DNA from: an uncultured Ruminobacter sp. | GTDB lineage: Bacteria; Pseudomonadota; Gammaproteobacteria; Enterobacterales; Succinivibrionaceae | Direction of reading: 5' to 3' | Assembly: GCA_902776415.1 (NCBI GenBank) | Contig: CACYPY010000003.1 | Coordinates: forward strand, 1-64,000 | Length of the DNA stretch: 64,000 nucleotides | In this document: positions 717-10,980 of the stretch, piece by piece | Layout: every line of letters begins with the position of its first letter | Position numbering within the stretch: the first letter of the stretch is position 1 | Notes under the pieces: generated by a model | The model's database searches: none | Seen by the model: only the letters and a program-made list of their open reading frames with translations | Told to the model about the DNA's origin: nothing | Made by a program: the position numbers and the translations under genes

Positions 717-3700
717 CTACATAATTTCGTTCAGAATCTGCAAGGGATGCCGCACCACGGCATTCTCCATTTTTCTGACCTGCTCCCGGCAGGAAAAGCC
801 GGTAACAAGACAGCGGTTTACCGGATACTTCCGAAATACCGGAGCCCAGTTCTGCCGGTAGATGGCCTCGGATCTGGCGACATTGGCAGCAGTATGACCG
901 TACAGTCCGGCCATGCCGCAGCAACCCACCGGAATCGGAATCAGTTTCAGGGAAGCATGTCTGAAGATTTTTACCCAGTCATCATGAGTTGCGGGCCTGA
1001 GAGACTTCTGCGTGCAGTGGGCCAGCAGATAATACTCGTTTTCGTCGCGGGTGCGCGGCTTCAGAAGCTCCAGATTGTCCAAAAGCCATTCCTGCACCAT
1101 CTGAATCACAAAATCACCCCGGGCAGTTCCCAGGGTTTTGCGGTACTCGTCCCGGTAACAGAGCACGATGGCCGGATCCACTCCCACCATGGGAATGCCC
1201 AGGCGGTACACCCGGTTGTAGAAATCCGCAGTCCTGGCCGCCGTAACGGCAAACTCCCGGAGATAGCCCCGGATATGAAGAGCCTTGCCGTTGGGCTTAA
1301 GCGGCAGCAATACCGGAATTTTTCCGGTCTTGGCCACCAGAGAGACCAGATCATGCACCATGCCGGCATCGTAAACCGAGGTAAAGGTATCCTGAACAAT
1401 GAGCACCCGCTTTTCCCTGTCTGCCGGGGTCAGCCGTTCCAGTCCGGCCAGATCAAAGGGCTCCAGGGTCTGATCCTTTAAAAGCTCGCTCAACGTGGGA
1501 ACGCTGAGCACCGGAACGTCCACAAAGCCCAGCACCTTCCTGACCATGAACTTTACCGGTTTCAGGGCGGTCACGGCATTGAACAGCCCCGGAGCCCGGG
1601 CCATCAGGGGAGCGCTTATCTCAAAATTTCTGACCATGAGATCTCCCGCGGGCCGCAGGTATCTGGTGTAGTAAAGATTGAAAAAGCGGGCCCGGAAATC
1701 CGGGACATCCACCTTGATAGGACACTGGGAAGCACAGGCCTTGCAGGCCAGACAGCAGTTCATGGCCTCCAGCACCTCGTCACTGAAATCGTAGCCCTTC
1801 CTGGCAATGGTGTTCAAAGTTTTCCGGGCCAGATCCAGCACCGAAATCCCGCGGCTTTCGGAAAGTCTTTCCTCGAGAAGCGGATTTGTTCCGGCCTCCT
1901 CAAGTTCCCGGAGCCACTCTCTCATAAGTCCCGCCCGGCCCTTGGGGGATTGCCTCCGATCCCCCATGAACTTATAGGTGGGACACATGGGAGAAGTAAT
2001 GTCAAAGGAAAAGCAGGCCCCGTTGCCGTTGCAGCTCACGGCCCGGTTGAAGCTGTGCCTTACCCCCTTCGGAATCTGCCGGTCAAAGCTGCCCCGCTTG
2101 GCAGCATCCACGGAAACCAGCGTATCGGAGTCATTGCCGTACGGGGTGCAGATCTTTCCGGGATTAATCCTGTTATCCGGATCAAACGCCGCCTTGACCT
2201 TTCTGAGTTCGTCAAAAAGCCCCCCGTAATATTTCGGGCCGTACTCGCTCCGGTAGCCCCGGCCGTGCTCGCCCCACATAATGCCGCCGTATTTTGCTGT
2301 AAGCTCCACCACCCTGTCGGAAATGGTTCTGAGCACCACCTCCTGCTCCGGATCGCAGAGGTCCAGGGCGGGACGGACGTGGAGCACCCCGGTGTCCACA
2401 TGGCCGAACATCCCGTAGCGGAGCCTGTGACTGTCCAGAAGTGCCCGGAATTCCTGAATAAAGTCCGCGAGATGCTCCGGAGGTACCACCGTATCCTCCA
2501 CAAAGGCCACCGGCTTGGCATCGCCGTCGGCATTTCCCAGTAACCCCACGGCCTTTTTGCGCATGGCATAGATTGCCTGGATATCCTTGTTTTCAGTGCA
2601 GATCTGGTAGCCGATAATCCCGCGATCATTGCCGTCCCGGAGATCCGCATCGAGAATTCTGACAAGTTCGTCCATCCGGTTCTTTTCAAGATCGGCGTCG
2701 GTGCCGGCAAACTCCACGATGTTGATGCCGTCCATCGTTTTGCCGGGTACCTCGGTCAGAAGATCCTTTACCTGGTACCATACAATATCTTTCTTGGCCA
2801 TGCCGAACACCACGGAATCCACTGTTTCCACGGAGAGCACCCCGGCCTTCACCAGCACCGGAGCATGCCGGAGCGCGGAATCGAAGCTGTCATACTTGAT
2901 GTTTACCAGGGCCCGGAATGAGGGAAGCGGTGTGAGATCCAGCGTGGCTCCGGCAATGAACCCCAAAGTGCCCTCGGCACCGCAGATAATCCGGGAGATG
3001 TCCAGAACTCCGGTGTCGGGATCCCAGACGTGCTTCAGATCATAGCCGGTAAGGAAGCGGTTCAGATCCGGAAAAGTGCTTACAATCTCGTCGCGCTTTC
3101 CGGTGGCTATTTCATAAACTGTCCGGTAAATCCGCCCCTCCATGGTATCAGGTTCCATTTTGGCCCGAAGGGCGTCCCCGGACACAGGACCGAAGGTGAC
3201 CAGACTGCCGTCCATGAGCACCACGTCCACATCCAGAATATGACGGGAGGTTTTGCCGTATTTCAGGGAACCCTGCCCCGAGGCGTCATTGGAGATCATG
3301 CCTCCGAACGTGGCCCGGTTTGAGGTGGACAGATTGGGAGAAAAAAACAGTCCGTACTGCTTTATGTCCTGGTTCAGACTGTCCTTGATGACTCCGGACT
3401 CCACATGCACCGTGCGCTTTTCGGGATCCACCTTTCCCACGCCCCTCATATGCCGGGAGACGTCAATAATCACCCCGCCGGTAAGAGAACCGCCGTTGGT
3501 CCCGGTACCGCCGCCCCGGGGTGCAAACTTTATCTTCCGGAATTCCGCCCGGGCCGCAATGCGAAGTGCCGTCTGAATATCCCCCGGAGTTTTCGGGAAA
3601 ATAATGCCTGCTGGCAGAAGCTGGTAAACGCTGTTGTCGGTGGCTTCCGACAGCCTGGCGGCATAGGAATACTCCACGTCCCCGGTAAACGAGGCATCGG

Positions 3701-3770
3701 CTGCCACTGCCTTGAAATAACTGAGATACAAGGGATCCAGGGAATATTCCTTCGAGAGCTGCGGGATCAT
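717..3770 (-). CDS. ydiJ: YdiJ-type FAD-linked 2-hydroxyacid dehydrogenase with Fe-S domain
   Basis: A 1017-residue protein, the same length as E. coli YdiJ (1018). The N-terminal half is a PCMH-type FAD-binding domain with the Gly-rich PRGGGTGTNGG loop at about residues 83-93, followed by a FAD-oxidase C-terminal domain. Near residue 670 there is a 4Fe-4S ferredoxin motif, CLACKACASQCP. The C-terminal third resembles the GlcF/CCG cysteine-rich domain and contains CCGMAG near residue 948. The family oxidises D-2-hydroxyacids (E. coli YdiJ is linked to D-2-hydroxyglutarate) and passes electrons through the Fe-S part; the exact substrate here is inferred. An in-frame extension of 44 residues exists, but ATG at 3770 is preceded by AGGAAG at good spacing and matches family length, so it is preferred. 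Transcribed divergently from the SMC operon. Confidence 0.9.
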   Translation of the reverse strand: MIPQLSKEYSLDPLYLSYFKAVAADASFTGDVEYSYAARLSEATDNSVYQLLPAGIIFPKTPGDIQTALRIAARAEFRKIKFAPRGGGTGTNGGSLTGGVIIDVSRHMRGVGKVDPEKRTVHVESGVIKDSLNQDIKQYGLFFSPNLSTSNRATFGGMISNDASGQGSLKYGKTSRHILDVDVVLMDGSLVTFGPVSGDALRAKMEPDTMEGRIYRTVYEIATGKRDEIVSTFPDLNRFLTGYDLKHVWDPDTGVLDISRIICGAEGTLGFIAGATLDLTPLPSFRALVNIKYDSFDSALRHAPVLVKAGVLSVETVDSVVFGMAKKDIVWYQVKDLLTEVPGKTMDGINIVEFAGTDADLEKNRMDELVRILDADLRDGNDRGIIGYQICTENKDIQAIYAMRKKAVGLLGNADGDAKPVAFVEDTVVPPEHLADFIQEFRALLDSHRLRYGMFGHVDTGVLHVRPALDLCDPEQEVVLRTISDRVVELTAKYGGIMWGEHGRGYRSEYGPKYYGGLFDELRKVKAAFDPDNRINPGKICTPYGNDSDTLVSVDAAKRGSFDRQIPKGVRHSFNRAVSCNGNGACFSFDITSPMCPTYKFMGDRRQSPKGRAGLMREWLRELEEAGTNPLLEERLSESRGISVLDLARKTLNTIARKGYDFSDEVLEAMNCCLACKACASQCPIKVDVPDFRARFFNLYYTRYLRPAGDLMVRNFEISAPLMARAPGLFNAVTALKPVKFMVRKVLGFVDVPVLSVPTLSELLKDQTLEPFDLAGLERLTPADREKRVLIVQDTFTSVYDAGMVHDLVSLVAKTGKIPVLLPLKPNGKALHIRGYLREFAVTAARTADFYNRVYRLGIPMVGVDPAIVLCYRDEYRKTLGTARGDFVIQMVQEWLLDNLELLKPRTRDENEYYLLAHCTQKSLRPATHDDWVKIFRHASLKLIPIPVGCCGMAGLYGHTAANVARSEAIYRQNWAPVFRKYPVNRCLVTGFSCREQVRKMENAVVRHPLQILNEIM

Positions 3771-3912
3771 ATGTGCTTCCTGTTTTCTGATAATCGGGGC
3801 CGGCACCGGCGGGACCTTCCGGACAAACCTGAGACCGAAAGCCTGCAATGCCAGGATTGCAAAGCCGTCAGACTTTATTCGGCAGGATCGGAACGGCACC
3901 ACGGATTTGGAA

Positions 3913-4083: not shown

Positions 4084-4112
4084 TTGAACGGGAAAGCATT
4101 TTCAGTTAGAAT
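4084..4112 (+). promoter_or_regulatory. Sigma-70 type promoter of the SMC/Wadjet-like operon
   Basis: TTGAAC (4084-4089) and TAGAAT (4107-4112) are separated by exactly 17 bases, which predicts a start near 4119. That gives a leader of about 30 bases to ATG at 4150 and supports that start over the upstream in-frame TTG at 3997. The leader has no convincing Shine-Dalgarno sequence. Confidence 0.55.
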
Positions 4113-4149
4113 TCCGTTATCGTTCCCGTTTATTTTTCAGACAACAAGC

Positions 4150-7100
4150 ATGCTCGAATCTACCAGTAACAGCCCCGGCTCCCCCGCCGGACTGCCCCGG
4201 CCGGCCGGCCTTATCCGCATTGTTCTCATCGACTCCTACATCGGATCCCGGGAAAACCGCATCTTCGAATTCGATTTCGAAAAGCACACCCAGGTAAACG
4301 GTGCCAACGGGTCGGGGAAAACCAGTCTTCTCAAGCTGATCCCCCTCTTCTACGGACTGGTTCCGGGAAGAGTCACCAGCTCCAGCAACGTCAGAAAGAG
4401 CTTCTCCGGATTTTATCTCCCGCGTTCCGACAGCGCCCTGGTGTTCGAATACCGCAATTCCCGATCCGAAATCGTTCACGTCATGATGACCAACGCCGGA
4501 AACAGCCAGAACAGCAAAAGCCTGAACTACCGTTTTGTGAAGGGACCGTTCCGGGTGGAGGACATCGTGGTATACGACGAAAACCTGAAATGCTACCGGG
4601 CCCGGGAATGGCGTGAATATCAGCAGATCCTGAAAGATCGCGGCATCAGGGCGGAACCCCTGGTAACCACCGTGGATCAGTACCGCTCGATTATTCAGAA
4701 CATTTCCTCCGGAGCCAACAACAACCTCCGGTACGACTACAGCCTGAGCGGCGGCAACCGGCAGCTCCGCTACATTGAGAGCATCACCCACAGCCTCATT
4801 ACCGGACACGTGAAGTTTGACAGCATAAAGCTGCTCCTGGGGGAGATTCTCCGTCAGGACCACCCGGGGGTGGCGCTCGTCCTGGATCCTGCCCGGGTGC
4901 TGGAATGGTGCGCGGACATCGATGACTACCGGGCAGTGGACGAGAAAAGGGAGACTCTGGAAAAAGCCTCTCTCCTGGGCGAAAAGATCGCCGGCGACAA
5001 AAAGTTGCTCCGGGAACAGGCCGGACTTCTTTCCTGGTATCACCACAGATTTGAAGTTGCCTCCGGAAAGCTGGAACAGGACATCATGAGCGCCAACGTC
5101 AAAAAGGAGGAACTGAATAATCTCTGGAAAGAAAAGGACAAAAAACTGTCTCAGGAGCAGACGGATCATGAGTCCGAGCTTAACGGAGTCAGAGAAAGAA
5201 TCCGGAAAATCGAGGAGGAGCAGGCCGCCTATGAAAAGCAGGAGATGGCCGGCTGGCTTCGGGAATACGACAGTCTCTCCGCTCTCCGCACCGCTCTTGA
5301 GGAAAACGAGTGCAAGCTGGGCTCCGTCAAGGCGGTCTACAACGACATCAAAACGGAATTTGAAAACCGGAAACTGACCGCCAAAAACAGGATAGACGGC
5401 GAAACATCCCGGATCCGGCAGGAGCTCAGTGCCGGCGAACAGAAATACCGGGATCAGCTTCATGAACTGGAACGGGCCATGAAGGACAATCTGGGGAAAC
5501 TGGAGCTCAGCAGACAGTCCCGCACTGCGGATCTCCGGCTTCAGGAAAACGACGTCCAGAACCGGATCGCAAACCTGGAACGGGAAAGGAGCAATATTAT
5601 TCCTCCGGAAAATCTCCTGAACAGCCGGAACGAAATTCAGGAGGAAATCAACAGATGCAACCGGACCAATTCCGACCTGAATTCACAGCTCTACCGGCTG
5701 AGTCAGGACATTCAGAATCACGAAAAGGCCCTGGCAGCCCAGGGTGCCGCCGCCGCGAAAAATGCCCGTCTCCGGAAGGAAAGCGAGGATCGGCTTTCCG
5801 AAATCGAAGTCCTGCTGAATCCGGATTCCGGAATCCTTACCGAATATCTCAACGAATACTGTCAGGACTGGCGGAACGGCATCGGGAAGGTTATCAGAGA
5901 AGATCTCCTGGCCCGTAACGATCTTGCCCCGGAGCTCATACCATCTCCGGAGGAACGGCCGCACCGCATCGCCGTGGGCCCCCTGTCCCTGGATATCCGG
6001 GAGCTTCCGTCTCCGCAGAAAAACGAGCAGGATCTCCGGGCGGAAAAGCAGAACCTGATAGAAACCGTCAGAAGCTGCAAGGATTTTCAGACAGAAAACG
6101 AAGAGAATCAGAAAAAGACCCAGAAGGCGCTGGAAGAGGCTCTTTCCGAAAAATTCCGTCTGGAATCCCGGCTGATTCCCGAGGAAAGCTTTGCAAACCT
6201 CCGGGATCGGCTCAGCATTCTGGACGGCAATATCGAAACCTACCGCAAGGATCGGGATCTGGAGATCACTAACGCCCTTGCCGCTGCCAAAAAGGAACTC
6301 GGCCGGATCCGCAGCGCACTCCGGGACGTGGAATCAGAGTACGAGCGCATGACGGCCGGCACCAGAGACAACTATCTCCTGAACAAAAGCGATCTGGAAA
6401 CTGCTCACGGAGAGGCGGCCGCGGCTCTCAGCCGGAAAATTCAGGATCTGGAGGCGGAACTTAAAAAGACCGTTTCCGAATATGAAGCCATTATGAAGCA
6501 AAAGCTGGCCAACAAAAATGTGGATGACCGTCTCATTGATCTGATTCAGAACGATATTACCGCAAAGGAAAAGCGAATCACCGAAATCGAGAGCCGCAGA
6601 AAGGAGATCCTGGCCTACCGGGACTGGCTGGAAAACAGCTATGGCAAACTTCCGGAATTCCGGCAGCGGGAAAGCGCCCTGGAACCCGTCCTGCAGGACA
6701 CGGTGAACCGCCGGGCGGATGCCGAAAGAGAACATGACGCCGCCGTGCAGATCATTGAACGGGAACTTGATGCCTTCAGAAAAGAGAAAGCCGCCTCTGA
6801 CAATAACGCTTCCGGTGCGGAAAAGTTCCTGAAAGAGCTCGGGGATCTCGGCATTCTCCCGCATCCCGATGCCCCGGATCAGGATGCTCCCTCCCGGATA
6901 TACTCTGATGTGGCCACCGCCGTCCGATTTGCTCTCGACAGCCTGAACAGAAACCAGTCCGATCTTGACAGCTGCATCACCACCATCAGCCGCATTATGG
7001 GCAGCATGGCCTCCAAGATCAGGGACTACTGGGTCTCCTGTCTCAATGACGCCAGAAACCGGGCCCGGCTGGCCGGAATTGACACCAATGACGAGAAAAA

Positions 7101-7929
7101 CCGCGATGCCGCCGACAATTTCGCCTACCCCCTGGCTGCGCAGGAACTTTTGAATCACGGTTTGCCCCAGCATCGGAAAAGCATTCTGGATCAGGCCCGG
7201 GACGTGCTCCACATGATCAGACAGTACTACGATCAGATGCGGGACTTTGACGAAAGGAACCGGGGCGTCAGCCGCCGGATCTCCAGAATCGTGTCCGACA
7301 ACCTGCAGTTCGAGGCCTTCGAGGAATTCTCCATCACCCTGGAGCCCCGAATCAAAAACATTGCCGGCTGGGAATTCATCGAAAATCTTTCCGGATTCTA
7401 TCAGAAGTGGCAGACCGAGGGCCGGATTCAGTCCGAACTCCCTGATCCCGAGATCTCCGAAAAACTGAAAAGTCTGGCCAATCTTTTTATAAATGGCGAA
7501 CTCCGGAACGACCTCAACGATCTGTTCAGCATCGTGTTCTCAGTGGTGGAAAACGGCAAGAAAAAAACCGCCGAAACCGAGAAGGAACTGGAGGATGTCA
7601 GCTCCAACGGACTCACCTTCCTGCTGCTGTGCGCCCTGTACATCAGCCTGATTCATGAATCCCGTGCCGGCAGAAACATCGCCGTGCACTGGCCGGTGGA
7701 CGAAATGAGCAAACTCTCCGGCAAGAATATCAGACTGCTCCTGGACGTCATGCAGCGCAACAGGATCGTCATGGTATCCGCCGCGCCGGATCTCAGCACC
7801 GCAGTGGCCTCGGAATTCAGCAGAATCTACCGCATCACCCGGGATCGGGTATATGTGAACCAGGATGCGCTGGATCCCGTGGGAGAGGCCATCAGAAAAC
7901 GCATCAAATCCGAGGAGAACAGCAGATGA
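4150..7929 (+). CDS. SMC-like ATPase of a MukB/MksB/JetC type complex
   Basis: A 1259-residue SMC-type protein and the motor subunit of a four-gene condensin-like operon. The Walker A loop GANGSGKT lies at residues 51-58, a signature-like VSSNGLTFLLL segment near 1150, and Walker B IAVHWPVDE ends with Asp1184-Glu1185. Between them is a long charged, helical coiled-coil region (roughly 240-1050) with a less charged hinge-like centre. Such proteins (MukB, MksB, JetC; possibly also DUF3584) extrude DNA loops; in Wadjet/MksBEFG systems they recognise small circular DNA for cleavage by JetD/MksG. The start at 4150 follows from the promoter at 4084; the in-frame extension to 3997 would place codons upstream of the promoter. 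The stop overlaps the next start (ATGA at 7926). The protein is too short for MukB (about 1480) and in the range of JetC/MksB. Confidence 0.85.
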   Translation: MLESTSNSPGSPAGLPRPAGLIRIVLIDSYIGSRENRIFEFDFEKHTQVNGANGSGKTSLLKLIPLFYGLVPGRVTSSSNVRKSFSGFYLPRSDSALVFEYRNSRSEIVHVMMTNAGNSQNSKSLNYRFVKGPFRVEDIVVYDENLKCYRAREWREYQQILKDRGIRAEPLVTTVDQYRSIIQNISSGANNNLRYDYSLSGGNRQLRYIESITHSLITGHVKFDSIKLLLGEILRQDHPGVALVLDPARVLEWCADIDDYRAVDEKRETLEKASLLGEKIAGDKKLLREQAGLLSWYHHRFEVASGKLEQDIMSANVKKEELNNLWKEKDKKLSQEQTDHESELNGVRERIRKIEEEQAAYEKQEMAGWLREYDSLSALRTALEENECKLGSVKAVYNDIKTEFENRKLTAKNRIDGETSRIRQELSAGEQKYRDQLHELERAMKDNLGKLELSRQSRTADLRLQENDVQNRIANLERERSNIIPPENLLNSRNEIQEEINRCNRTNSDLNSQLYRLSQDIQNHEKALAAQGAAAAKNARLRKESEDRLSEIEVLLNPDSGILTEYLNEYCQDWRNGIGKVIREDLLARNDLAPELIPSPEERPHRIAVGPLSLDIRELPSPQKNEQDLRAEKQNLIETVRSCKDFQTENEENQKKTQKALEEALSEKFRLESRLIPEESFANLRDRLSILDGNIETYRKDRDLEITNALAAAKKELGRIRSALRDVESEYERMTAGTRDNYLLNKSDLETAHGEAAAALSRKIQDLEAELKKTVSEYEAIMKQKLANKNVDDRLIDLIQNDITAKEKRITEIESRRKEILAYRDWLENSYGKLPEFRQRESALEPVLQDTVNRRADAEREHDAAVQIIERELDAFRKEKAASDNNASGAEKFLKELGDLGILPHPDAPDQDAPSRIYSDVATAVRFALDSLNRNQSDLDSCITTISRIMGSMASKIRDYWVSCLNDARNRARLAGIDTNDEKNRDAADNFAYPLAAQELLNHGLPQHRKSILDQARDVLHMIRQYYDQMRDFDERNRGVSRRISRIVSDNLQFEAFEEFSITLEPRIKNIAGWEFIENLSGFYQKWQTEGRIQSELPDPEISEKLKSLANLFINGELRNDLNDLFSIVFSVVENGKKKTAETEKELEDVSSNGLTFLLLCALYISLIHESRAGRNIAVHWPVDEMSKLSGKNIRLLLDVMQRNRIVMVSAAPDLSTAVASEFSRIYRITRDRVYVNQDALDPVGEAIRKRIKSEENSR

Positions 7930-8573
7930 TAAGAGACACCGCGGAAAGACTGCTTCGGGGGGAGTTTGTCTGCAGTACCTCCTGCCCCGATGCCTACCGG
8001 GATCTGGAAGAACCGGAAACCCGCAGCCGGGTGGAAGCCATTCTGGCCCCGCTGAACCGGAAAATATCGGTAACCGCCAACCGGGCCGCCTACTACGCCA
8101 CCTGGATTAATCTGGACCTTGCCGAGGATCGGGCTTCCATAAAACGGGAATTTCAGAACATTATGGAGCAGCTCCGGCCGGTTCTGGAGTTTATTCTTCT
8201 GGTCATGGACGCCAGCACCCGGGATCATCCCATGATGCCGGGCAGCCAGGTTACCGAGGCCGAGCTCACCGCCCGGGTGCAGAATAACCAGTATCTGACC
8301 ACCCGTGCCAAAAAAATCAGCACCTTCATCAGCAAAAGACCCCAGATCGAGGTTCCGGAGATCATCAGAAACATTATCGATCGCATGGTGAAGTTCGAAA
8401 TCCTGCAGGAAAACCTTCCCGGAACCAGGATTTTCACCTTCACCGGCAAGGTGGATTATGTTTACGAGGTGCTGGAATTCATTGACGCTCACGAGAACAT
8501 TCTGGCGGAGGAGGAGGCCGCGCTGGAACAGGAGAAGCAGAAACCGGCAGAGGAGGATCTCTTCAGCTCATGA
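7926..8573 (+). CDS. MukE/MksE/JetB-like condensin accessory subunit
   Basis: A 215-residue soluble protein overlapping the SMC gene by ATGA and overlapping the next gene in the same way, so translation is probably coupled. The composition and size fit the small winged-helix MukE/JetB subunit, which binds the kleisin and DNA. The C-terminal third is a helix-rich stretch ending in an acidic Glu-rich tail (about residues 187-215, EEEAALEQEKQK). The assignment rests mainly on operon position between SMC and kleisin genes and on length; no catalytic motif is expected. Overall sequence similarity to described MukE/JetB cannot be judged by eye. Confidence 0.7.
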   Translation: MIRDTAERLLRGEFVCSTSCPDAYRDLEEPETRSRVEAILAPLNRKISVTANRAAYYATWINLDLAEDRASIKREFQNIMEQLRPVLEFILLVMDASTRDHPMMPGSQVTEAELTARVQNNQYLTTRAKKISTFISKRPQIEVPEIIRNIIDRMVKFEILQENLPGTRIFTFTGKVDYVYEVLEFIDAHENILAEEEAALEQEKQKPAEEDLFSS

Positions 8574-9940
8574 AAAATTCCAGTCAGGGATCCCCGGAAC
8601 GCAACGAAAACCGGGTAATCCGCTCCATTCTCGCGGATCTCAGTAACGGGTCTGACCTCATCATCGCTGCCTACAACGGCGAACTCACGGCGGTGTCACA
8701 GGAAAACGCAGCCCTGTTCCAGGCGCTCCAGAACCGCAACATTCTGATGGACACCGTGACCGGCTACTGGCTAAACCCGCACCTGAGCCGGCTTATCAAC
8801 TACATCCTGAAAATCGATACCCGGAGCTATATCGACACCGATATCGCCGCCCGTCTCAAGAACATTTCCATTCTCTGCAACAGCTACATCGAGCATCTCA
8901 GATCCAGGAACACGGAGCAGGCGGAACGGGTGCTCTCGGATCTCATGCAGCTCGTGCACGAAATCGGCTTTGATGCCCAGATCGCCGTGGACGGACTTTC
9001 CCGAAAGCTCCTTACGGAATTCGGCTTTGTCCACAGTCTCCGGGACAAGATTGCCGAAAACGAGGCTGCCATTCAGAAGGCTTCGGATCTGGTGGACAAC
9101 CTGACGGCCTATACCTATCAGGATCTCAACCAGTATGTGATCAACGCGGACAACGACATCCGGCTCTACCGGATTCTGATAAGCGAGCTTCTGACCTCCA
9201 TCACCCGCTGCCAGAACGAGCTCAACGCCATTATGGGACCTCTGAGAAACATGCTCTCCCGGTTCCGGCAGCAGGTAAGAAAAACCAGCCTCATCAAGGC
9301 CTACTGCGACCACTGCACCAAAAACAAGAATTACCATCCCGGCGACTATGCCTCCCTGACGGTACCTCCGGAAATATTCACCCGGGCCGCCCCGCTTTCC
9401 CTGGACGGACATGCCTTTTTGGACGACGACGTGAATATGGACACGCTGGTCGAGATTGCCAAAAGCATCAAAACCAGAAATGCCGGGCTGGAGGATGTCC
9501 CGCTGGAGGAAGAGGACACCGGATTTACCAGTCCTCCGGAAACGGCCGAGGAACAGCTCGTTTATTCCGGAGTCGAGGACGATGTCATCAATTTCTTCGT
9601 GTATGCGGTGGAGGCCGGTGAACCGGTAAGCGCCCTGGAATACTACAACCGGAAACGCGATCCCGGAGATGAAAATTCCGGAATCCCCTGTTCTCCGGAT
9701 CACTGGCTCTTTGCGGTAAGCTCCTACTATGACAACATGGACAGCGGGCATCAGGAATTCTACCGGTGCATCCCGAAAGGCCGCCTGATACCCTCGTACA
9801 CCGAAAGACTGCGCCGGCTCCGCGGAGACTCCGAAACTCCCGGAGATACCGTTATCGATGCCGCGGACGGCTCCGCCGAATACCGGTACGGCGACATGAT
9901 TCTGGACGACATCATTATCGAAAGACATCCTGAGGACTGA
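8570..9940 (+). CDS. MukF/MksF/JetA-like kleisin subunit
   Basis: A 456-residue, largely helical protein. In this family the kleisin bridges the SMC heads and binds the MukE-like subunit through its N-terminal winged-helix dimer and middle region. Here residues 1-120 are mixed, 120-270 are strongly helical (the four-helix part that would contact the SMC neck), a CDHC pair lies near residue 245, and an acidic linker (about 305-330, rich in Glu/Asp) precedes a compact C-terminal part. The start ATG overlaps the upstream stop (ATGA at 8570), and the next gene starts 2 bases after its stop. Identification comes from position, size and helical pattern rather than a hallmark motif. Confidence 0.7.
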   Translation: MKNSSQGSPERNENRVIRSILADLSNGSDLIIAAYNGELTAVSQENAALFQALQNRNILMDTVTGYWLNPHLSRLINYILKIDTRSYIDTDIAARLKNISILCNSYIEHLRSRNTEQAERVLSDLMQLVHEIGFDAQIAVDGLSRKLLTEFGFVHSLRDKIAENEAAIQKASDLVDNLTAYTYQDLNQYVINADNDIRLYRILISELLTSITRCQNELNAIMGPLRNMLSRFRQQVRKTSLIKAYCDHCTKNKNYHPGDYASLTVPPEIFTRAAPLSLDGHAFLDDDVNMDTLVEIAKSIKTRNAGLEDVPLEEEDTGFTSPPETAEEQLVYSGVEDDVINFFVYAVEAGEPVSALEYYNRKRDPGDENSGIPCSPDHWLFAVSSYYDNMDSGHQEFYRCIPKGRLIPSYTERLRRLRGDSETPGDTVIDAADGSAEYRYGDMILDDIIIERHPED

Positions 9941-9942
9941 TT

Positions 9943-10980
9943 ATGCAGGATCTCAAAAGCTTCCTGAACGAACATAAAACCCACGCCGGGTGTCTTCTTG
10001 ATATTCTCGGGGATCCCTCGCAGGATCCCGGCCTCAAAAAGCATGCCGCCCTTTTGGACTTTCTGGAGGAGGACCTTCCGGAAAATGCCGCCCGGGTGCT
10101 TCTTAAATACCGGAAATTCCCCCCGAAGGCGCGGGAGGAGAAAAAACGCCTGATCCTGGAGCTGGGACTGCTGATTCAGGACTGTCTGGAAAAAAACGGC
10201 ATTACCGCGGATTTTCTCCGGGATCTGACTGCTCCCGGAAATCGGATCGCCAACGCCGTCTCCGGAAACGAAAAGCGTTCCGGAATCCGCACCACCGAAG
10301 GCCGGGTATTTCTCAGAGCCGGAACGGACGTGAAATTCCGGAACACGGCCTTCGGCGACCTTGCCGGAATGCCGTTTTTTCCGAAATCGGCGGAGTTTGC
10401 CCGGGAGGTTTCGGAGCTTTCCCAGATTGTGGTGGCGGAAAACCAGGCGGTATTCTTTGATTTTGAAAGCCTGACGGTTCTTGCCGAGGATTCCGGAACC
10501 TCCGTAATTGCGGACAGGTACCGGAAAACCCTGTTTGTGCACCGGGTAATGCCGGCCGGAAACGGAATGTTTTCCGAAAGCGAATACTGCAACACCATCA
10601 TGCTCACCCTGCTCCGGCGCTTTCCGGAAATCCCGGTAATTATGGCCGGGGATCCCGATCCGGGAGGCTTTGGCTGGATGACGGGACTTTACGGCTGTCT
10701 CTCCCGGGAAGTGCTGCACGGTACCGCCCCTGAAGGCGGAATTCTGCTTCCGGAAATGACGCCCGGAGACTGGGATATTCTCCGGAAAAACGGCAAGGAT
10801 CTGAGAGACGGAGAAGTTTTTGAAGGATTTAAAAGGAAATCCGAAGCAGGAAAACCTGACAGCGCCGTAACCGCGCTTCTGAAAACCCAGTTTGACCTCC
10901 GGAAGACCATTACCGAGGAATACCTGAGGGCCCGGAAAATCCCCCTCCGGCTTTACCCCTGGAAAGAACTCCTGAGCTGA
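9943..10980 (+). CDS. JetD/MksG-like Toprim nuclease subunit
   Basis: A 345-residue protein, last in the SMC operon. A Toprim-like core is visible: a strand ending in Glu (VVAENQAVFF, Glu166) and a later strand with the DxD element (MAGDPDPGGF, Asp237 and Asp239), the metal-binding triad used by JetD/MksG to cut DNA. The C-terminal helices end in PLRLYPWKELL. Known JetD proteins are usually nearer 390-430 residues, so the N-terminal DNA-binding part is short here. All three acidic residues are present, so an active nuclease is expected. With the three preceding genes it forms a complete Wadjet/MksBEFG gene set; the anti-plasmid role is inferred from that family. Confidence 0.75.
   Translation: MQDLKSFLNEHKTHAGCLLDILGDPSQDPGLKKHAALLDFLEEDLPENAARVLLKYRKFPPKAREEKKRLILELGLLIQDCLEKNGITADFLRDLTAPGNRIANAVSGNEKRSGIRTTEGRVFLRAGTDVKFRNTAFGDLAGMPFFPKSAEFAREVSELSQIVVAENQAVFFDFESLTVLAEDSGTSVIADRYRKTLFVHRVMPAGNGMFSESEYCNTIMLTLLRRFPEIPVIMAGDPDPGGFGWMTGLYGCLSREVLHGTAPEGGILLPEMTPGDWDILRKNGKDLRDGEVFEGFKRKSEAGKPDSAVTALLKTQFDLRKTITEEYLRARKIPLRLYPWKELLS

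Follow-up and report, generated by a model that had tools for sequence, protein, structure and literature searches.

Four tightly packed genes in a 64,000-nucleotide stretch of DNA (hereafter the window) combine an SMC ATPase with a candidate nuclease, and the question is whether they form a plasmid-restricting condensin of the Wadjet/MksBEFG kind, a condensin that serves the chromosome, or a known Wadjet type with its genes rearranged. The first-pass annotation had read the four genes as overlapping or abutting, and the coordinates agree (Table 1): SMC and E share an ATGA at 7926-7929, E and F share another at 8570-8573, and the TGA of F is separated from the ATG of D by two bases (9941-9942). 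A TTG-started frame extends the SMC ORF back to 3997. The 17-base-spaced promoter that had been proposed for the operon is present as a site, but it stands just weakly above chance, since two such sites were observed in the region against 0.5 expected from shuffles. Between the window and its sister species, dN/dS was about 0.08 for E, 0.11 for F, 0.13 for SMC and 0.29 for D, the fastest-evolving gene of the operon in this genus. This purifying selection and the occurrence of the operon in numerous further genomes show that the four genes are real, and a chance grouping of ORFs was rejected on the basis of conservation, dN/dS and recurrence.

Table 1. Features of the operon, in window coordinates.
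Feature	Position	Strand	Remarks
Promoter-like site TTGAAC-17-TAGAAT	4084..4112	+	9/12 consensus positions; weak
SMC gene (MksB/JetC-like), 1259 aa	4150..7929	+	ATG start; PF12128 (DUF3584)
Walker A GANGSGKT, SMC residues 51-58	4300..4323	+	Direct reading; conserved across 25 homologues
ABC signature SSNG, SMC residues 1151-1154	7600..7611	+	Ser1152 and Gly1154 identical in all 25 homologues
Walker B WPVDE, SMC residues 1181-1185, catalytic Glu1185	7690..7704	+	Asp1184 and Glu1185 identical in all 25 homologues
E gene, putative MksE/MukE/JetB-like KITE subunit, 215 aa	7926..8573	+	PF21980 match just under the cut-off
F gene, predicted MukF/MksF/JetA-like kleisin, 456 aa	8570..9940	+	Predicted fold
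D gene, putative Toprim nuclease (JetD/MksG-like), 345 aa	9943..10980	+	hhalign and predicted fold
Glu166 codon, Toprim acidic residue	10438..10440	+	Invariant in 26/26, type I JetD included
Asp237-Pro-Asp239 codons, Toprim DxD motif	10651..10659	+	Both Asp invariant in 26/26

The genes on either side, assigned by eye, are of housekeeping type: a divergent FAD-linked oxidase upstream (717-3902) and, downstream, a cold-shock-like protein on the opposite strand. The oxidase is 67% identical to one that is also divergent beside the SMC gene in another genus of the host family (g7, locus L032, 6005-9064; the window belongs to g1), and this shared neighbour suggests an old insertion site that was kept vertically.

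The SMC protein is a full-length member of PF12128 (DUF3584), scoring 475 bits (E-value 4.2e-142; cut-off, 31 bits), and its Walker A and B motifs are as intact as had been claimed. The MukB N-terminal domain, PF04310, was not matched in the Pfam search. In profile comparisons with hhalign, the SMC heads were homologous to both type I JetC (prob 96) and MukB (prob 95). A rapidly computed tree of SMC heads, in which some branches are long, covered the DUF3584 proteins, MukB and, of the JetC types, type I only; the DUF3584 proteins group together in it with 99% SH-aLRT and are separate from the other two. Searching the class with the PADLOC JetC3 model yielded no type III reference for this tree, since the scores were low and scattered across numerous ORFs, as coiled-coil noise would produce. 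The same noise swamped the SMC profile search, and single-sequence PDB searches with SMC and with D gave nothing useful.

The second gene had been called MukE-like. Against the MksE family PF21980 the window protein falls just under the cut-off (26 bits against 27, E = 1.3e-5), and 20 of the 22 aligned members of its family match at E <= 0.001. For F, proposed as kleisin-like, neither the Pfam nor the PADLOC models gave a sequence-family match, and the assignment comes from its AlphaFold model (mean pLDDT 73). The N-terminal two thirds of this model align with MukF (VIA Z 13.1-13.3 over 217-228 residues, rmsd 6.4-6.8), compared with Z 9.5 for Wadjet-II JetA; helical bundles also reach high Z in such comparisons, and the MukF alignments additionally span the N-terminal winged helix. 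F is thus predicted to be a kleisin of the MukF/JetA type, nearer MukF than JetA, so that the dimer may be MukBEF-like in build. When E and F were compared as sequence profiles with the Jet and Muk subunits no signal emerged, but the known pairs JetE-MukE and JetF-MukF were equally silent, which makes this comparison uninformative.

The last gene, D, had no direct family match in the Pfam search. Compared by hhalign with the DUF7281 (PF23947) set, it gave prob 96 and E 4e-9, and by its sequence D is a diverged relative of this family. The D family also aligned with type I JetD (prob 89, E 2.4e-6; mismatched-subunit controls, prob 0.1-0.8), and a profile search of the PDB weakly matched Spo11 and MksG. 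In the AlphaFold model of D (mean pLDDT 77), residues 120-340 align with Topo VI-A (Z 9.7), MksG (Z 8.7) and JetD (Z 7.9), in line with the JetD-type Toprim fold that the first-pass annotation had looked to for support. The N-terminal ~105 residues are predicted to be helical and were unmatched in the fold comparison, and D lacks the DUF3322 domain found at the N-terminus of type I JetD. Glu166, Asn167, Asp237, Asp239 and Gly242 are identical in all 26 sequences compared, including three type I JetD, and the three acidic residues lie where they had been placed. The description of D as short (345 aa) holds when it is set beside the type I JetD proteins compared (396-427 aa), whereas D is long for its own family, whose members are mostly about 272-309 aa.

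Taken together, the sequence matches and predicted folds identify the operon as a complete putative condensin with a Toprim nuclease of the Wadjet/MksBEFG kind, on a branch unrecognised by PADLOC 2.0. The Jet models of that library, those for type 2 and type 3 JetA-D included, matched none of the four proteins. In contrast, the type I models strongly match an SMC, a kleisin and a nuclease in sister genera, with type I SMCs of the host family at ~990-1100 bits. Relatives within the branch match the Jet models weakly at best (JetC3 1e-7, JetD3 4e-6), and JetC3 scores of similar size are also reached by many ORFs of the class that are unrelated. Described Wadjet operons generally begin with the kleisin (A-B-C-D) or with the nuclease (D-A-B-C). 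The type I order is mksF-E-B-G in C. glutamicum and Pseudomonas (PMC10123090), whereas the window has SMC-KITE-kleisin-nuclease. An SMC-first (C-B-A-D) branch is listed neither in the PADLOC 2.0 library nor in the literature searched, where we also found no mention of DUF7281. With type I Wadjet/MksBEFG (JetABCD; C. glutamicum MksFEBG, P. aeruginosa PA14, E. coli GF4-3) the operon shares its four components in one operon, SMC, a putative KITE, kleisin and Topo VI-A-like Toprim nuclease, as well as the homologous SMC heads and Toprim domain. It differs in lacking matches to DUF3375, DUF3322 and JetC1, in a predicted kleisin fold nearer MukF and in its separate SMC clade. An ordinary type I Wadjet was rejected for the window operon, given the different order and the lack of JetA1-D1 matches. 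With MukBEF the operon shares the kleisin fold and SMC-head homology; it differs in the Toprim subunit, in the missing PF04310, in its separate clade and in its order, muk being F-E-B. Housekeeping MukBEF was likewise rejected, as PF04310 is not matched and the SMC clade stands apart. The MksBEF of P. aeruginosa, a condensin without nuclease, is similar in its MksE family and in the three-gene versions that this branch also contains, and unlike the window operon in that the latter carries a nuclease. In Pfam, PF12128 and PF23947 are both recorded as domains of unknown function.

The first-pass annotation had further suggested a distinct branch of plasmid-defence condensins in this lineage. A distinct branch is supported by its own SMC clade and its absence from PADLOC 2.0; its confinement to the host lineage is not supported, since the SMC-first order is common to the whole branch across Gammaproteobacteria and plasmids. 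In a survey of gene order, SMC-E-F appeared in all examined relatives whose locus is intact; those that have a fourth gene carry a DUF7281 relative in that place, and the full SMC-E-F-D order recurs in many gammaproteobacterial families and on plasmids. The relatives come from the host family itself (further species, in genus g8), from several families of the window's taxonomic order, from other gammaproteobacterial families and from Billgrantia campisalis, and they include plasmid copies in Vibrio breoganii, Acinetobacter indicus and, on an IncC plasmid, Enterobacter hormaechei. The system is sporadic over families and rare within the class sample, in which 10 of 369 genomes have PF12128 above cut-off. 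D was found in seven of these ten and in only 4 of the 359 others (Fisher p 2e-10), which indicates that it belongs to the DUF3584 condensin; all seven copies, the window's being one, adjoin the SMC gene. A scan of named-genome contigs gave three loci only, and a scan of viral contigs no relative.

Some of these loci have unusual surroundings. In a sister species (L027, 11729-14911), a 1060-aa TOTE conflict-system gene encoding an AEP primase, a helicase and a PLD-like nuclease lies between F and D and breaks the contiguity of the operon. On the IncC conjugative plasmid of Enterobacter hormaechei (NZ_OR497351.1; L123, 5983-13733), Tn7-like transposition genes of the TnsD family lie directly upstream of the system, and an ISSod4 insertion interrupts its SMC gene. 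The record of the Dolichospermum phage Dfl-JY45, a 209-kb genome (PP438435.1), also has the complete set of four in unchanged order (L155, 5977-12332; D match at 9e-51); it is either a phage carrying a defence system or a misassigned record.

Versions without the nuclease have arisen more than once. SMC, E and F are intact with no D alongside in 12 loci (L028-L030, L033-L036, L038, L042, L046, L047 and L079), three of which are from Alteromonadaceae (L036, L046 and L079); in the host family such versions occur in genera g10 and g11. The retrieved stretches of the three-gene loci contain no remnant of D, nor was D found elsewhere in the genome in the nuclease-free host-family genera and order relatives tested. 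L032 says nothing on D, its contig stopping 135 bp past F. In L031, also without nuclease, both E and F are broken into a pair of overlapping frames, indicating either a decaying copy or assembly frameshifts. Mapped on the SMC tree, the presence and absence of D requires at least six changes. The nuclease-free SMC of g11 is under strong purifying selection (dN/dS about 0.06), which, together with the intactness of the three-gene versions, argues that the motor is useful without the nuclease.

How would such a system act? In JetABCD, the nuclease is activated when the motor has drawn in the whole of a small circle (reviewed in PMC10586767). Because of their homology to JetABCD, we regard SMC, KITE and kleisin as a putative loop-extruding motor and D as its candidate nuclease; complex formation, loop extrusion, circle recognition, cutting and plasmid restriction are what we infer for the branch. 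The genes would be transcribed together, in the order SMC, KITE, kleisin, nuclease. By analogy with JetABCD, an SMC dimer with KITE and kleisin would load on DNA and reel it into a loop with ATP. On a small closed circle, extrusion would run to completion and the stalled motor would activate the Toprim nuclease, which would then cut independently of sequence, the large chromosome being spared. The operon probably encodes a working nuclease-condensin, and an anti-plasmid role appears likely. For the full reading, an anti-plasmid nuclease-condensin of the Wadjet/MksBEFG type on a separate DUF3584-DUF7281 branch, we estimate a probability of about 0.72. The sporadic distribution, the TOTE gene in the sister operon and the Tn7-like neighbours on the IncC plasmid point to defence. 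Counting against it are the lack of Jet model matches, the missing DUF3322, the intact nuclease-free versions and the several copies on large plasmids, which must tolerate the operon. Ordinary Wadjet is also known on large plasmids (PMC10586767).

If not a plasmid defence, the operon could encode a chromosome-organising condensin in a family seemingly without Smc-ScpAB or MukBEF, with the Toprim protein aiding chromosome topology by nicking or decatenation. Among 36 host-family genomes, ScpA was found in none, an SMC hinge match in none, and MukB gave marginal matches at most (up to about 26 bits, compared with >340 bits where a family does have MukB); the constraint on the g11 SMC and the oxidase neighbour shared by g1 and g7, which suggests vertical inheritance, fit this explanation as well. 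Nevertheless, we find it unlikely: the DUF3584 SMC is present in just 11 of the 36 genomes and 5 have neither this SMC nor a type I kleisin, so it is not indispensable; it is also rare and scattered in the class and is carried by plasmids, and the retained Toprim acids suit a subunit that cleaves DNA. It is also conceivable, although quite doubtful, that the host family lost Smc-ScpAB and MukBEF and that DUF3584 condensins of defence origin dropped the nuclease in some genera and became the chromosome condensin, the window's genus keeping the armed form; the family would then preserve, in series, natural stages of a transition from killing plasmids to organising the chromosome.

It is similarly improbable that the operon is an ordinary Wadjet, of type I, II or III, with just its genes shuffled. 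PADLOC does describe all JetC types as DUF3584-like, and the four kinds of protein are the same, but the silence of the JetA-D models in the window, the high scores of the family's own type I SMCs and the separate SMC-head clade (in a tree without types II and III) are difficult to reconcile with it, and conservation of C-B-A-D throughout the branch argues against a local shuffle. That this motor and nuclease defend mainly against phages, or against foreign DNA that is linear or replicating, rather than against plasmids, seems unlikely too: the TOTE gene inside the sister operon, the relatives beside mobile-element genes and the one phage record with all four genes are compatible with it, whereas the closest function-tested systems, JetABCD and MksBEFG, target circular plasmids (PMC10586767, PMC10123090) and the locus has no sign of phage sensing or abortive infection.

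Should plasmid restriction by this operon be true, it would represent a further Wadjet type missed by PADLOC, in Gammaproteobacteria close to laboratory strains, and would give functions to the Pfam families DUF3584 (SMC) and DUF7281 (nuclease); the copies on conjugative (IncC) and other large plasmids could then serve plasmid-plasmid competition. The combination of a MukF-like kleisin, a JetD-like nuclease and repeated nuclease loss would also offer a comparative system for shifts of SMC complexes between defence and chromosome upkeep.

The host family, which relatives and gene content suggest is probably Succinivibrionaceae, is not devoid of ordinary Wadjet, as the type I kleisin is found in 24 of its 36 genomes (in G005 as fragments only). 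The window's own genome has one such Wadjet/MksF kleisin outside the window (L087, G000:C24:43407-44798; PF11855, E 3e-91), with a partial SMC-like gene at the contig end, and two nuclease-condensin systems may therefore coexist in this genome.
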